Shown: positions 5,945 through 60,000 of the stretch, in pieces
Layout: every line of letters starts with the position of its first letter
How positions within the stretch are numbered: position 1 is the first letter of the stretch
Assembly (NCBI GenBank): GCA_019055375.1
Contig: JAHQIW010004635.1
Coordinates: forward strand, 124,001 to 188,000
Direction of reading: 5' to 3'
From: Parelaphostrongylus tenuis
Lineage: Eukaryota > Nematoda > Chromadorea > Rhabditida > Metastrongylidae
Length of the DNA stretch: 64,000 nucleotides
Notes under the pieces: model-generated
What the model was told of the DNA's origin: nothing
The model's input: the letters and a program-made list of their open reading frames with translations, nothing else
Database searches by the model: none
Made by a program: the position numbers and the translations under genes

Positions 5945-7175
5945 GTCTAGATGGATATTAGGGCCGGGCAAGGAAGAGTAACATCTGCCTCGAAAGACTG
6001 AGCATTTCCCCCGCACGCGCCGTCATATATAATACAACGTAGCATGAATGTCATGACGGTTGAGACAAATGAGGAGGATGAGCGAGTATCAATTGAAAAT
6101 GTCGGTGTTGGTCCGGTACAGAAGAGGATCGAAGAAGTGGGTTCCTACGTTTCTAAATGGATATAGTGGAGGTATGACTCGTCGTTGAATGTGGGGAAGA
6201 AGTGGTGCTAGAAAAAACGGTTTGGCTAGATGGTGTTTGCAGTGAAGGCTTAGGTGGATAATCTTCATTATTACCGATCGCTCCTTAAGGATCCATACGG
6301 ATTGCCATGCGAGTGTGAGTATATGGGTTAACGCCACAATGATGATCAATCCGATGGATGTGCAGGATGAAAAGTGTGATGATATGGCTTCACCGCGGAA
6401 GGACAATAGGCGTGGTTGCAATTACTGGCAACATTGCGTTCTCAGTGCTTCCTCTAGACTTCCAGAGTAAGATTTCATTGAGGAGAAAACTTACTCAGTT
6501 TTCGTCGCACTTTGGTGAAAGGAGAAGAAAGGACATGTGCAGTACGAGACTATACAATCTCTGCTCTGCTCAAAAAGGCCTCTATGGTACCTCCGAAGTG
6601 TCGTCGGGCCGCTGTCGACTTCAGAGTGAGAAACAACAGCACGTACTTTATTGTTTTTACTGATTTTAACTAGGAACTAAGTCTTTGTACCTTTACAGGA
6701 GTTGGAAAGTGACCTGAATCGCACAGTGTCGAAATATTAAGAGAGAAGTCCAGATGTGATAACTTGGAGCCCTGTTATCTGTGTAAAAAAGCTTTTGAGA
6801 TATGCACACTGATGATTGATTTATGATAAACGTGAGAAGTTTCACTGCAATTACCAGCACCGTGAATTTCAACTTTGAAATAGCAATCTTGTATTTTATT
6901 GGAGCTAGTCTGGATTTGAACATAAGAAGTGCTGCCATCGGATTTCCACGCTCTAATTGCCGAACTATATAAGCGACTGCACAATAGAGAAATGTCGAAT
7001 TATCAGTGAGGAGTTGGAGGTCATATTCACACGATGAAGCGGTGTTCGTGTAAAAGAATATTCGAGGCAGTTTCATTATGAACGACAGGAAGAGAGGGTT
7101 CAACGCCTCTGGGTACATTTATCCTGTGATAATGGTTCGCCCTATATCACGGGGACTTTCCAAAGTGACTGGAGG
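5945..7175. repeat. Right arm of the large inverted duplication
   Basis: Reverse-complement counterpart of 55-1645 (see that entry). It is shorter because it lacks the roughly 260-bp block present in the left arm. Open frames here mirror those of the left arm and are not convincing genes. Confidence 0.7.
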
Positions 7176-11770: not shown

Positions 11771-12084
11771 ATGATGTAACAGTGTGGTCAGAAAAGCAAC
11801 TAACATTTGTAGAAGATATATGTATGCAGTATCACATCATAAGATAAGCATTAAAAACCGTGATGTTCAGCTAGTTTCAGGAAGGACGGCAAAGCCTGTA
11901 TAAGCAATTTACTTTTATTTTGAAGTAGTTTGGATAGATAATGAAGTGATTATGTCCTTTCGCAGTGCAGTGAATCTAATTTACAGTATTGAACATCAAG
12001 TAGTAATAAAATAATTTCATAGACTCCATAGCATCAAGTGCTATTAAATCTCACAATAAACTTTTGATAAAATTCCCAGGAATG

Positions 12085-12280
12085 TTTTGAAGCCTTACCG
12101 AGGTTATTACACCAGAGCAGTGCACTGTTTCGAAGGTCTCACGCTCTTTGTCAGTGGCCCACGCTCCACATTAAGCTCTGAATTATAGCAAGCAGGGATA
12201 CCTCCGAAACAGCGGTATGGCTCTGGCCTAATAAGCCCGGTAAGGATTTATACATTCCCAAGACTGTACTGAATGTTTAT
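12085..12280. repeat. Foldback pair of hammerhead family H2, decayed
   Basis: The left half, read on the minus strand, carries GGCCACUGACAA and the right half (plus) carries CCGAAACAGCGGTATGGCTC. These are the two halves of the H2 ribozyme seen intact at 25.3 and 25.6 kb, facing outward. The minus core has CUGACAA instead of CUGACGA, and the plus half lacks its CUGANGA. Neither should cleave. Confidence 0.45.
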
Positions 12281-18439: not shown

Positions 18440-18560
18440 CTATAATGTAGTGATCAGTTTGGAGCGTGTAGGTCTAATGAAGCGGGCAATACTGCCGAAA
18501 CGTATTTAAGCCACTGACGTACCAGCTTCGAAAGGCTTTCAACATTCTCGCAGACAAAGG
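18440..18560 (+). repeat. Decayed copy of hammerhead family H2
   Basis: GGUCUAAUGAAGCGGGC ... CUGCCGAAACGUAUUU keeps stem II and the GAAACGUA segment of H2, but the core is CUAAUGA and stem I no longer pairs. The downstream part (CCAGCTTCGAAAGGCTTTCAA ... TTCTCGCAGAC) matches the end of the 52.5 kb copy. Confidence 0.5.
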
Positions 18561-24720: not shown

Positions 24721-25285
24721 GTCGTTTATAGATACATGTGAAGTGACATCGTGTCTACTACGCATGTCCTCAAAATGATGTCTCTTCTCTTATATTGTAG
24801 CTTTCAGGATCTCTCAAGTTCTTTGATTATTGAGAAATTCGTCGTCTGTTATTGTAAAACCAGCCGGTCTGTGATGACATGATACTAGGCGTCATCCTCT
24901 AAGTGCCAATTGCGTAGATATCTTAAATCGTCCTATTAAGATTGGAAGCCTCGGATTTCTTCAATTCCTTGGCTTTCTTATTACGCAGATCGATTACTCT
25001 AAAGTCTTTCGTTCAGACTCCGACTTCGCATTAATCTTGATCGAGTCGTACTGCTGGCTGCCAGTACTAGGAGCATCTACGACTTCTGTGTATCATTTTG
25101 CATGGATTTTTCTGTAACTGTCTCCTATCCTTAGTTTGAATTTCGAAACATTTCTGATTAATTCAAAATATAACTGGATAGACCAAAACTAATCCATTTA
25201 ATCGACTGTTTCTAAAGCCTCGTAATAAACATTCAAAATATTTCCAAAAAAAAGAATGTTTTAGCCTAAACGAGGTTGGTACGCA

Positions 25286-25333
25286 GGGCCATACGCCGGT
25301 GTTTCGGAGGTTCGTCCACCTCGTCAGTGACCC
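25286..25333 (-). ncRNA. Hammerhead-type ribozyme, family H2
   Basis: On the minus strand: stem I GGGUCA, core CUGACGA, stem II GGUGG-ACGAA-CCUCC (one U-U mismatch), GAA, stem III segment ACACCGGCGU, A as the cleavable base, then UGGCCC. GGGUCA pairs with UGGCCC over all six positions (one G-U). All invariant core bases of the hammerhead family are present. Stem III is too short to be stable alone, but the segment is largely self-complementary, so a dimeric ribozyme is plausible. Predicted cleavage is between the bases at 25292 and 25291. Confidence 0.65.
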
Positions 25334-25621
25334 CCGCCCCACATTAAGCCCTGCATTGTAGCAAGGAGGGAGGCGTATGTGGTATGTGGTGATGGCATAG
25401 TGTACAATGCACTGGTCCATCACCATCAGTCGATGGTTTCGGCTGATAGACGAAATGTTTATTACGAGGTTTCAGAAACAGTCGATTTAATGGATTAGTT
25501 TTGGTCTACCAGCCGAAACCATCGACTGATGGTGATGGACCAGTGCATTGTACACTATGCCATCACCACATACCACATACGCCTCCCTCCTTGCTACAAT
25601 GCAGGGCTTAATGTGAGGCGG

Positions 25622-25669
25622 GGGTCACTGACGAGGAGGACGAACCTCCGAAACACCGCCGTATGGCCC
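25622..25669 (+). ncRNA. Hammerhead-type ribozyme, family H2
   Basis: Plus-strand mirror of the motif at 25286-25333: GGGUCA (25622-25627), CUGACGA (25628-25634), stem II GGAGG-ACGAA-CCUCC with five perfect pairs, GAA (25650-25652), ACACCGCCGU, A (25663), UGGCCC (25664-25669). The stem II change U to A, relative to the minus copy, restores pairing. Predicted cleavage is after 25663. Confidence 0.7.
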
Positions 25670-25749
25670 TGCGTACCAACCTCGTTTAAGCTAAAACATT
25701 CATTTTTTTGGAATTATTTTAGATATAACTGGATAGTCGTGTGCCTTCT

Positions 25750-26412: not shown

Positions 26413-26908
26413 GATAATAAATGTTTTGATCATTGTTGACTCTCTCCGATAGTATTGTGTGTGTCAATGTCAATACGTGTGTGACAAGTGTCAATGCGTA
26501 GCTTGTACAATTCTCCGAGACCATACCTCTGCTATCGACCGCTCTTTTACAGACCCGCTCAAAATAATTTAATCTGATAAGGATATTACTTGTATTATAT
26601 TTGTAAAAGAGCGGTTGATAGCAGAGGTATGGTTCATTCTAAAAGCCGCAAGCTCGACTGCCGGTCACCACAAAGTCAGGTAATACCATCATCCTACTTT
26701 GGGTGCTTAGTTTTTACTCGGCGCCGATTCCTTTAGAGGATTATTTTACCTCAAGGGATCGACGTAACCGAGGGAGGGTGCTACTGATGAGTCCCAATGG
26801 GACGAAATAGGCACCTATATAGCACTAGAGACCTATCAGCTCAAAACATGTAATATCCTTATCAGATAATAAATGTTTTGATCATTGTTGACTCTCTCCG
26901 ATAGTATT
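26413..26908 (+). repeat. Retrozyme-like element (family H3): 44-bp direct repeats around a hammerhead
   Basis: A 44-bp sequence ending CTCTCCGATAGTATT is identical at 26413-26456 and 26865-26908, 452 bp apart. Between them lie a 32-bp inverted repeat (26520-26551 with 26602-26633, one mismatch), a 17-bp perfect inverted repeat (26572-26590 region with 26850-26866) and a hammerhead ribozyme at 26776-26826. No protein is encoded. Direct terminal repeats plus a hammerhead in a non-coding unit of a few hundred bp resemble retrozymes and the non-coding ends of Penelope-like elements. Confidence 0.65.
26776..26826 (+). ncRNA. Hammerhead-type ribozyme, family H3
   Basis: GUGCUA (26778-26783) pairs perfectly with UAGCAC (26820-26825), extendable by one G-U pair. 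Between them: CUGAUGA (26784-26790), stem II GUCCC-AAU-GGGAC (26791-26803, five perfect pairs), GAA (26804-26806), stem III AUAG-GCAC-CUAU (26807-26818), and A at 26819 as the cleavable base. Every invariant hammerhead core position is present and G10.1-C11.1 is canonical. It is a type I arrangement with open stem I. Predicted cleavage is between 26819 and 26820. This is the best single ribozyme in the window. Confidence 0.85.
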
Positions 26909-30535: not shown

Positions 30536-31296
30536 TCATTTCTCTAATAACTGTAGAATAAGTTCTTCTGGGTTGCCGTACTTAGATAAAAGTAGATCAA
30601 TGGTTTTCCGGTAGTTTCTTCCATTGATTTGAAATTCCTTTATTGCCTGTAAAGGCTCCCCTTTCAGAGAACTAATAAGGTAGTTGAATTTCTGTGAGTC
30701 ACTGACCTTTTGTGAATGCACGTTAGTGTTGAAAAGTTCCCAAAAGTTGTACCATTCCCGTATATCCCCGTTTAAAGTGGAGATGGGTATCGTGGGCAGT
30801 TCCATTTGTTTGACGATTGTAGTGTCTTCTGTGTCGTCTTTTACATTTGTTAGGATGGTGGTATTTGGGCAATCGATATGTGTTTTGAAGCCTTTCAATC
30901 GAGCTTTAAGAATACTGGCGCACTGGAAAGCATCGGTTACAGCATGTTCCGGTTGTTCTACTACTTGTTCAAATTTTTTTGAATGTTTAATAGATTTGGG
31001 CTGTGCTCCACTTTACTGGCCAAATCTTGCATTTCTTGTTCTACTTTCGTTCTTGTGTTCTCAAGAACACTTAGAGCTTTTCGAGATGTTGTAGACTTTC
31101 TTGTACTGAGCTGAACTTGTTTGTCATTCGTTGTTTCTATACATAGTTGCTCTATTCGACTTTCTTTGTATATTGTTAACGTCGTTTCGTGTTGAGTGGC
31201 GTATCCTGAGAGCACGCGTATCTGCCTGGTTGGAAGCAGTGTTTGAAGCATGATGAAAAAACTTTGAAAGAGATTTGAACGTACCTGCTTTCCCAA
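30536..31296 (-). pseudogene. BEL/Pao retrotransposon gag (capsid region, DUF1759-like)
   Basis: The minus strand encodes an N-terminal coiled-coil-like segment (31296-30961, with RKALSVLENTRTKVEQEMQD), one stop, then 120 codons (30898-30536) with LPTIPISTLNGDIREWYNFW, ELFNTNVHSQKVSDSQKFN and YLISSLKGEPLQAI. The latter is characteristic of the BEL/Pao gag core. It is preserved much better than the 3.9-5.3 kb copy. It lies in opposite orientation to the pol fragment at 29.3-30.1 kb, so the two are not one intact element. Confidence 0.8.
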
Positions 31297-34354: not shown

Positions 34355-34432
34355 AAATCCGACCTCAGACGGGAGTTGAACCCGTGTTTCAACCATAGGG
34401 GCGCGTGCTACCACTACACCACTGAGGTCATC
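34355..34432 (-). repeat. tRNA-derived SINE, family C
   Basis: The minus strand reads CCTCAGTGGTGTAGTGGTAG (A box), GGTTGAAACACGGGTTCAAC (B box) and CTGAGGTC. It resembles a tRNA-Gly-type head closed by a GACCTCAG/CTGAGGTC stem. Confidence 0.65.
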
Positions 34433-48429: not shown

Positions 48430-48745
48430 TTTCAAGGTTGGTACACTAGTGCCTAACGTACGCTTCGGCGGCATCACTTGCCTTGTCAGAGCTGCACGCC
48501 TCGCAGGTTCCCCTACTGTGAGTAGCAACAAGGAAACGCTGTTGGCGCTAAACAACGTAAAAATGCGATTTTCACGTTTTCACCATTCTATTCCAGTCGA
48601 TAGCAGACAGCTGTTATTCAGATAACGCACTTTAGTCGTAACGTTCCCCGCCTCTACAAGATGTAAGGAGACCAGCGGGGTGTGGGGCTTTAATGGGGTG
48701 GGCTAGACTAGCGCAACGTACTTAAGCCATTAATGTGTCTACCTC
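48430..48745. repeat. Foldback pair of hammerhead family H2 inside an intron
   Basis: Left unit (minus): GCAGCUCUGACAAGGC ... GCCGCCGAAGCGUACGUU, with core CUGACAA and GAAG. Right unit (plus): GGGCTAGACTAGCGCAACGTACTTAAGCC. Both are decayed H2 copies facing outward. They lie between the 48380 and 48910 exon edges of a minus-strand gene candidate. Confidence 0.45.
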
Positions 48746-52074: not shown

Positions 52075-52605
52075 AGTTCGTGAGAATGCTTGAAGTCTTT
52101 TCGAAGATGATCCGTCAGAGGCATGCGTGCGATTCGGCGGTGTCACCCGCTTCGTCAGTGGTCTACGTCCACACTGGAGCCTACTTCATGGCAAAGTTGG
52201 AGAGACTTTATTTAAGGTGATAGCAAGTAATATTGTGTTAATACCATTTTCTTCATTCGATGGAATATGACTGGTATTGAATATGTATAGATCCATCTCA
52301 TCAACTATTTTCAACCCTTTAAACACGCTCACACACACACTATATTGAATGTTCATAGCGAGGTTTAAAAACAGTTGATAATATGCATTTCTACAAAATC
52401 ACGACCAGCCGTAATCCAGCGACTGAAAAAAGTGGTGATAACACAGTATCACCTGTTATCACCATGAATAACGTCTCCGCATCCCCTTCATAAAGTTCAG
52501 TGTGTGGCGAGTGCCACTGATGAAGCGGGCGACACCTCAGAAACGTATGGCTCTGAAGCACCAACCTCGAAAAGGCTCTAAACGTTCTCGCAGACTATAT
52601 AGAAT
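52075..52605. repeat. Foldback pair of hammerhead family H2
   Basis: The left unit (minus, about 52200-52115) has GACCA CUGACGA AGCGGGUGACACCGCC but GAAUCG in place of GAAACG. The right unit (plus) carries the motif at 52509-52554. Both face outward, with (AC)n near 52330 and AT-rich sequence between them. Confidence 0.55.
52509..52554 (+). ncRNA. Hammerhead-type motif, family H2
   Basis: GCCA (52513-52516), CUGAUGA (52517-52523), AGCGGGCGACACCUCA, GAA (52540-52542), ACGU, A (52547), UGGC (52548-52551). Stem I GCCA/UGGC is perfect and continues past one U-U mismatch with two more pairs. Stem II is damaged (A opposite A at its base). The palindromic ACGU can only act as stem III between two RNAs. 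Confidence 0.45.
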
Positions 52606-53234: not shown

Positions 53235-53375
53235 CTCAATAATGTGGAGTGCTGTGCAAAACGAGCGTCAGTGGTGCAACGGTTAGCATACGCTCCCGCA
53301 AAGAGTGAGATCTGGGTTCAAATCCCGGCTGACGCAAATGTTTTCGCACAGCACTCCATGTTATTAGGTATACGA
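53235..53375 (+). repeat. tRNA-like element, family B, with cloverleaf inside a long hairpin
   Basis: Core 53268-53336: GCGTCAG closes perfectly with CTGACGC. The D stem is GTGC/GCAT, the anticodon stem CGCTC/GAGTG with loop CCGCAAA, and the T arm CTGGG-TTCAAAT-CCCGG. Outside the core the flanks are inverted (GTGGAGTGCTGTGCAAAAC before; GTTTTCGCACAGCACTCCAT after), extending the acceptor stem by some 20 bp. Position 33 is C rather than the universal U and related copies are dispersed, so a repeat rather than a working tRNA gene. Confidence 0.65.
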
Positions 53376-59884: not shown

Positions 59885-60000
59885 AGAGTGCTGTTAAAAA
59901 CTTTTGCGTCAGGCGGGATTCGAACCCAGCTCTCACTCTTTCCGGGAGCGTATGCTAGTCGTTGCACCACCAACGCTTGTTTTGCACATCATCTTTATAC
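59885..60000 (-). repeat. tRNA-like element, family B
   Basis: The minus strand reads GGTGGTGCAACGACTAGCAT (A box), GAGTGAGAGCTGGGTTCGAA (B box), TCCCGCCTGACGC, and tail AACAGCACTCTACACTG. Confidence 0.65.

Follow-up and report, generated by a model that had tools for sequence, protein, structure and literature searches.

Head-to-head hammerhead retrozymes of the nematode Parelaphostrongylus tenuis share a two-site insertion pattern with Penelope-like elements

An inverted pair of hammerhead motifs in the genome of the nematode Parelaphostrongylus tenuis (481.5 Mb, 5105 contigs) is, read from its sequence, a single insertion of a ~270-nt retrozyme, composed of two head-to-head units that each represent another rotation of one circle. 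The original prediction, made on the 64,000-nt stretch that we analyzed as a whole (the window), had described a foldback element. The inverted arms are present, but the element belongs to a multi-copy retrozyme family, and its inverted order is the trace of its insertion. Our best reading, to which we assign a probability of roughly 75%, is that the retrozyme is mobilised by the machinery of Penelope-like elements (PLEs), with priming on both strands. PLEs have been named strong candidates for the source of the enzyme that spreads animal retrozymes, on the basis of coexistence, tandem order and shared hammerheads (available sections of PMC7229834), and a curation guide repeats their candidacy (available sections of PMC8969392). 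The insertion sites described here carry a signature common to retrozymes and PLEs that can be measured in any genome, and this pattern, held in common with a larger Penelope-type retroelement, may point to the mover of parasitic RNA elements in animals. Among the titles and abstracts on retrozymes or hammerheads in nematodes that a search of freely accessible literature listed, none describes such an element. Elements of this kind are known; as far as the literature was searched, what is new is their occurrence as families in a nematode, their inverted form and the two-site rule in common with PLEs.

The window element and its hammerhead motifs

The element spans 25182-25722 and is flanked by a 14-bp target duplication (Table 1). 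Comparison of the window with itself showed arms of 221 nt that are 96% complementary, for which reason the plus and minus hammerhead copies are not independent of each other. Aligned to the retrozyme circle, the left arm covers 279 nt, from circle position 107 round to 115, with its last bases also belonging to the target, and the right arm covers 269 nt, from position 61 round to 59.

Table 1. Coordinates of retrozyme features in the window, numbered from its first nucleotide.
Feature	Position	Strand	Remarks
Left target-site duplication ATATAACTGGATAG	25168..25181	.	exact 14-nt repeat of 25723-25736
Left arm, a complete turn of the ~270-nt unit of the retrozyme	25182..25455	-	outer end at site 2
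CAGUCGAU motif, minus arm	25201..25208	-	immediately 5' of RT-start site 2; read from sequence
Hammerhead motif, minus copy	25286-25333 (read 25333-25286)	-	stem II U-U mismatch, stem III decayed; predicted cleavage between 25292 and 25291
Right arm, likewise a complete turn of this unit, other rotation	25454..25722	+	outer end at site 1
CAGUCGAU motif, plus arm	25479..25486	+	read from sequence
Hammerhead motif, plus copy	25622-25669	+	stem III decayed; predicted cleavage between 25663 and 25664
Right target-site duplication	25723..25736	.	exact 14-nt repeat of 25168-25181
Family-2 insertion (283-nt unit; plus arm preceded by a short minus arm)	26520..26881	.	neighbours main element
Family-2 type I hammerhead	26778..26825	+	predicted cleavage between 26819 and 26820; geometry scan
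Old diverged relative of family-1 hammerhead	52109..52171	-	family-1 model, E 0.0002
Old diverged relative of family-1 hammerhead	52504..52562	+	family-1 model, E 1e-7

The two outward-facing hammerhead motifs that had been predicted match the sequence in their parts and order. The plus copy reads GGGUCA-CUGACGA-GGAGG-ACGAA-CCUCC-GAA-ACACCGCCGU-A and, past the predicted cleavage point, UGGCCC. Stem I has six pairs on both arms, one of them G-U as claimed, and the same cleavage positions were predicted (25664 plus, 25291 minus). The difference reported between the copies at one stem II position (A-U in the plus copy, U-U in the minus copy) held, but a second one, at a single position of stem III (ACACCGCCGU vs ACACCGGCGU), had been overlooked. 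A pattern scan located the full hammerhead geometry at three sites in the 64-kb window, the two main copies and one at 26784, and in none of 300 dinucleotide shuffles.

The covariance-model check proposed along with the prediction went against it: no Rfam hammerhead model matched at its gathering threshold anywhere in the window, and at E≤10 both the window element and a consensus-like copy of its family still gave no match. The minimum-energy fold differed from the hammerhead fold in the window copies and in the 48-nt family consensus alike; the hammerhead fold was less stable than the minimum by 1.6 kcal/mol for the plus copy and by 2.5 kcal/mol for the consensus. Self-cleavage of transcripts from these two copies is a prediction, and a doubtful one, because one copy carries the U-U mismatch in stem II and both a weakened stem III, and because a transcript spanning both arms could instead form a 221-bp hairpin. 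Both copies depart from the stem III palindrome ACACCGGUGU found across the family and are therefore probably weaker; they look decayed.

Retention of the hammerhead in two retrozyme families

The genome search for this family (family 1) returned at least 197 matches, from the 40 scored among 2577 first-look candidates. Its query was an inverted dimer, which favours inverted dimers. Fifty loci were retrieved, ten of which repeated places already in the set, and removal of the duplicates L016 and L022 from the remaining 40 left 38 loci for counting. By pattern, the core (CUGANGA and GAA in order) was intact in 67 of 83 family-1 regions and broken in 16. Fifty-nine of the core-intact copies had a stem I of at least five pairs and a stem II of five pairs, in agreement with a type I hammerhead. 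The commonest stem I combinations were GGGUCA/UGGCCC (32 copies) and GGGUCA/UGACCC (18), paired at all positions in both cases. The palindrome forming stem III occurred in 53 of the 67 copies and, judged from its letters, might also join two RNA molecules by pairing. That the motif is kept across the family speaks for the hammerhead reading.

Pairing statistics within family 1 were weak. Among 74 of the 83 regions (six same-locus repeats and three partial or diverged rows were omitted), two stem pairs showed a double change (reached by 36/500 shuffles), 13 further pair types were seen (13/500), and 95.7% of positions were paired (96/500). Covariation was visible across families: both partners had changed in 88 cells, spread over 13 of 15 pairs, and controls with slid partners gave no more than 22 such cells. 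The alignment (116 matches from 48 sources) was fitted to the model, and a good part of its signal is that of family 1 against family 2. The family-1 covariance model also detected the second retrozyme family (26.8 kb) and older window copies at 52.1, 52.5, 18.5 and 12.1 kb and, more weakly, at 48.4 kb (E 0.022).

One alternative is that the hammerhead is an inactive relic in family 1 and that spreading depends on the reverse transcription (RT) start region alone. The broken cores would fit this, as would locus L004, where an identical core change in both arms suggests that an already altered hammerhead may have been inserted as such. A PLE with a dead hammerhead also inserts equally well in vitro (PMC11167929); cleavage is thus dispensable for PLE insertion in vitro, and the hammerhead may therefore act in the making of unit RNA rather than in insertion. 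We nevertheless regard a relic as unlikely, given the pairing preserved through double changes across families and the identity of the core in the old and young subfamily consensus sequences, which differ at 1/48 hammerhead positions compared with 32/220 elsewhere (Fisher p 0.014). The hammerhead block is not uniquely conserved, as 46 of 268 circular windows, itself included, are equally conserved and 36 of 268, again including itself, show as few subfamily differences; the stretch upstream of it is conserved to the same degree.

In family 2, whose copy neighbours the main element, the hammerhead is closer to known models. The window copy matched Rfam RF00163 with 26.2 bits (gathering 34, E 0.0004), and that of locus L095 matched the same model, Hammerhead_1, with 29.5 bits (E 2.7e-5), likewise under the gathering score of 34. 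This sub-gathering match supports the hammerhead reading of family 1, which has the same core and stem order; unlike family 2, family 1 has no match at E≤10. The cleavage triplet, which ends in A, is a further difference from RF00163. The units of 270 and 283 nt (GC 0.46 and 0.44) each contain one hammerhead and, judged by unit length, no ORF. Tandem copies occur in both families, with a 271-bp period at L027 (family 1) and five plus units at 283-284 bp at L095. The latter array (584-2364), five near-identical direct units following one inverted unit, is a candidate source locus of unit-length RNA.

In these respects both families resemble metazoan non-LTR retrozymes (Cervera and de la Peña 2020, available sections of PMC7229834), which combine a 170-400 nt unit, a type I hammerhead and the lack of an ORF with a unit GC below 50%, target duplications above 4 bp, tandem copies and coexistence with PLEs. 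A palindromic stem III region or loop is described there for amphibian retrozymes. By contrast, the host here is a nematode, a group without mention in PMC7229834, and family 1 is invisible to Rfam hammerhead models. Most of the family-1 insertions that we studied are head-to-head, whereas the word 'inverted' is absent from that paper, and the insertions described here, unlike those in its available sections, end at two internal sites.

The window copy of family 2 lies between 44-bp exact direct repeats (26413-26456 and 26865-26908), while the duplications of its relatives are far shorter. At its left, positions 26520-26633 contain a near-perfect 32-nt inverted repeat (97%) with its left half in the short minus arm. 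The 25 bases left of this insertion are identical at locus L083.

Insertion pattern

The 38 family-1 loci comprised 41 insertions: 34 with a minus arm followed by a plus arm (-+), one each of --+, -++ and -+-++, and four single minus arms, one of which was a 97-nt fragment with 71% identity. Hence 37 of 41 began minus and finished plus, a share that is biased because the query was itself an inverted dimer. A target duplication of 9-15 bp (shared words of 9 nt or more, most often 12 nt; A+T 0.75) was detected in 29 of the 36 insertions with both flanks, compared with 6 of 1260 mismatched flank pairs; duplications longer than 4 bp are characteristic of metazoan retrozymes.

The outer ends of two-arm insertions fell at two places. 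In 30 of 34, the near end was 44-77 nt beyond the cleavage site and the far end 93-129 nt beyond it (medians 60 and 104), and none of the 68 ends lay between 80 and 89. The two classes (+36-80 and +81-130) were delimited after the family-1 ends had been viewed, and the PLE and family-2 ends were measured after these limits were fixed. One end of each class was present in 30 of the 31 insertions with both ends inside the classes (binomial p 3e-8), with near and far ends in either order (15 and 15 of 30). The four exceptions were L015, L023 and L045, each with one end elsewhere, and a short fragment in L027; the few extreme end values are probably chance matches into the target. In family 2, ends at +39-58 and +80-111 were observed in six of the seven insertions with both arms (L082, L083, L084, L088, L090 and L095, with L027 as the exception at 210/38), although the same left flank in L082 and L083 may make these two non-independent, and under the family-1 limits the count is five of seven, since L088 reads 80 and 39. 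Loci L085 and L086 were excluded as duplicates of L084; L093 (split by script) reads 47/94 and stands outside the seven, and L092, L046 and a second place in L027 have one arm only.

Long inverted repeats with a target duplication could also be those of a MITE or foldback DNA transposon whose hammerheads were inherited or arose by accident. This is hardly credible, as constant terminal inverted repeats are missing, units are rotated from copy to copy, the duplications vary in length (9-15 bp), and tandem arrays occur in L027 and L095. Self-priming, in which a single cDNA folds back and copies itself into inverted order, has been proposed for Penelope inverted repeats, and head-to-head PLE repeats with junction palindromes have been described (both in the available sections of PMC3846280). 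It would fit the rare variants common to sister arms (39/198, 2.6 expected), which point to one template lineage per insertion. However, self-priming predicts the same outer end on both arms, which is at odds with the unlike ends of 30 of 34 insertions; the inner junctions, moreover, are scattered round the circle. We consider it very unlikely.

The cleavage site was crossed by 76 of 83 arms, and none ended within 3 nt of it; the templates would therefore be ligated circles or uncut concatemers. A peak in arm length at one turn was considered as proof of a circle and rejected (6/68 arms within 10 nt of 270); because arm lengths have no sharp peak there, the circle is not proven. Folded as a circle, the unit is more stable than its shuffles (z -4.2); imposing the hammerhead on this fold raises the energy by 2.5 kcal/mol.

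Penelope-like elements of the same genome

A search with the GIY-YIG protein family, a query neutral to orientation, placed all 150 scored matches above the cut-off, of 1723 candidates. Among these 150 of 1723, all 20 neighbouring opposite-strand pairs within 5 kb were minus-then-plus. Eleven pairs were retrieved, and in all ten that were measured (C4986, which fell outside the range of measurement, was left out) the outer ends lay at +56-70 and +104-121 from a hammerhead-like site, the far site of family 1 being at +93-129. This hammerhead-like site was identified by eye and has no Rfam hammerhead match. Pair C4162 has a 12-nt target duplication, looked for only outside the aligned ends. At L061, a minus arm and a plus arm accompany a frame of 892-893 codons with RVT_1 and GIY-YIG, which by its domains and length indicates an autonomous PLE in this genome. 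The nearest named relatives of its protein are from Necator, Ancylostoma and Haemonchus, and together with the BEL/Pao relatives given below they point to a strongylid host, probably a metastrongyloid.

The motif CAGUCGRU is common to both retrozymes and to PLE families A and B, with AAGUCGGU in family C; in PLEs, it is located at the ORF start. The longer arrangement CGAGGUU-(n)-ACAGUCGRU occupies +72-93 in retrozyme 1; in PLE family A its place is +77-97, within the start of the ORF (MPRLIDSRS). Likeness between retrozyme 1 and the PLE RT-start region was modest over the whole circle (reached by 44/3000 shuffles for family A and 49/3000 for family C, both figures leaving the matching position uncounted). 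A comparison of the whole PLE end with the doubled circle was set aside, as 11/500 shuffles reached its value; restricted to the 130 nt that follow the cleavage sites, the value was reached by 0/2000. For retrozyme family 2, the likeness to the PLE RT-start region was not above shuffles, the common part being the 8-nt motif only. In PLE family C, the hammerhead-like site lies farther from the RT-start region, so the hammerhead distance is not fixed across all PLEs.

The genomic ends would fit the biochemistry described for PLEs. A purified PLE protein is reported to cut and extend both target strands and to begin RT at two adjacent positions within the RNA, the sequence between them being the PLE 'tail' (PMC11167929). 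The PLE hammerhead there cuts at +26 of the ORF, with the main RT start at +111-118, that is, 85-92 nt downstream. In PLEs, a hammerhead precedes two RT-start sites, as it does the two putative ones of the retrozymes. The RT start site did not differ between target strands (PMC11167929), and because RT starts alike on both, the one-of-each rule is not predicted by that study. Genomic PLEs with pLTR, tail and hammerhead likewise share the head-to-head order, which is the most frequent one, and the one-sided tail, optional at one inverted end, as well as short target duplications (8-10 bp there, 9-15 bp here; available sections of PMC3846280, with PMC11167929). Retrozymes differ from them in lacking an ORF and in their unit of ~270-283 nt, compared with the ~890-codon frame of PLEs.

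Twin priming, known from L1, also yields minus-then-plus insertions with target duplications. An ordinary LINE-type (non-LTR) retrotransposon that uses twin priming might accordingly move the same retrozyme, and the A+T-rich duplications (0.75) would suit this too. We consider this quite unlikely, as inversion is the rule in the set that we studied and its paired end sites agree with those of PLE insertions in the same genome.

Proposed mechanism

The DNA itself shows the hammerhead motif and its family, the arrangement of the units with their target duplications, and two end sites that follow the PLE pattern of ends. From these we infer cleavage, circularity, the nicking and priming steps, and a PLE as the source of the enzyme. 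In the PLE-mediated reading that we prefer, the retrozyme would be a non-autonomous ~270-nt non-coding RNA, and its hammerhead would be expected to trim tandem transcripts to single units. Whether as a circle or as a concatemer, the unit RNA would be taken up by the PLE reverse transcriptase-endonuclease, and an A+T-rich target would be nicked on both strands at positions ~12 bp from each other. The 3' end at each nick would then prime RT, which would start at either of two sites within the RNA, located ~60 and ~105 nt beyond the hammerhead cut, and the two cDNAs would join mid-element, producing head-to-head units with outward hammerheads and a ~12-bp duplication.

We hypothesize further, at about even odds, that retrozymes are RNA parasites of PLEs that copy the PLE RNA handle (hammerhead, hairpin and CAGUCGRU). 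A PLE enzyme pair would hold two start sites ~45 nt apart, one per target strand; the head-to-head pair would be the primary product, and direct tandems would be multi-turn products of circular RNA. The two-site pattern offers a simple account of both the one-sided PLE 'tail' and the head-to-head order, and the two mapped RNA sites are targets for in vitro tests.

Other sequences in the window

Decayed older hammerhead-bearing copies were found at 12046-12257, 18461-18523, 48440-48502 (the E 0.022 match) and 52109-52588; the relatives at 52109 and 52504 together again show the minus-then-plus order. With the two main insertions, about six hammerhead-bearing places per 64 kb hint at tens of thousands genome-wide, if the window is typical. 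Rfam microRNA-precursor matches across the elements were rejected, since they fit long inverted repeats and scored below gathering. Fragments of BEL/Pao-type retrotransposons (Peptidase_A17, DUF1759) are located at 6696-7118 (-) and 30539-31012 (-), with the closest proteins to a BEL/Pao fragment of the window coming from Angiostrongylus and Parelaphostrongylus. The window also contains tRNA-like genes at 34361-34428 (-), 53265-53336 (+) and 59905-59976 (-), the first two identified by Rfam and the last two by ARAGORN.
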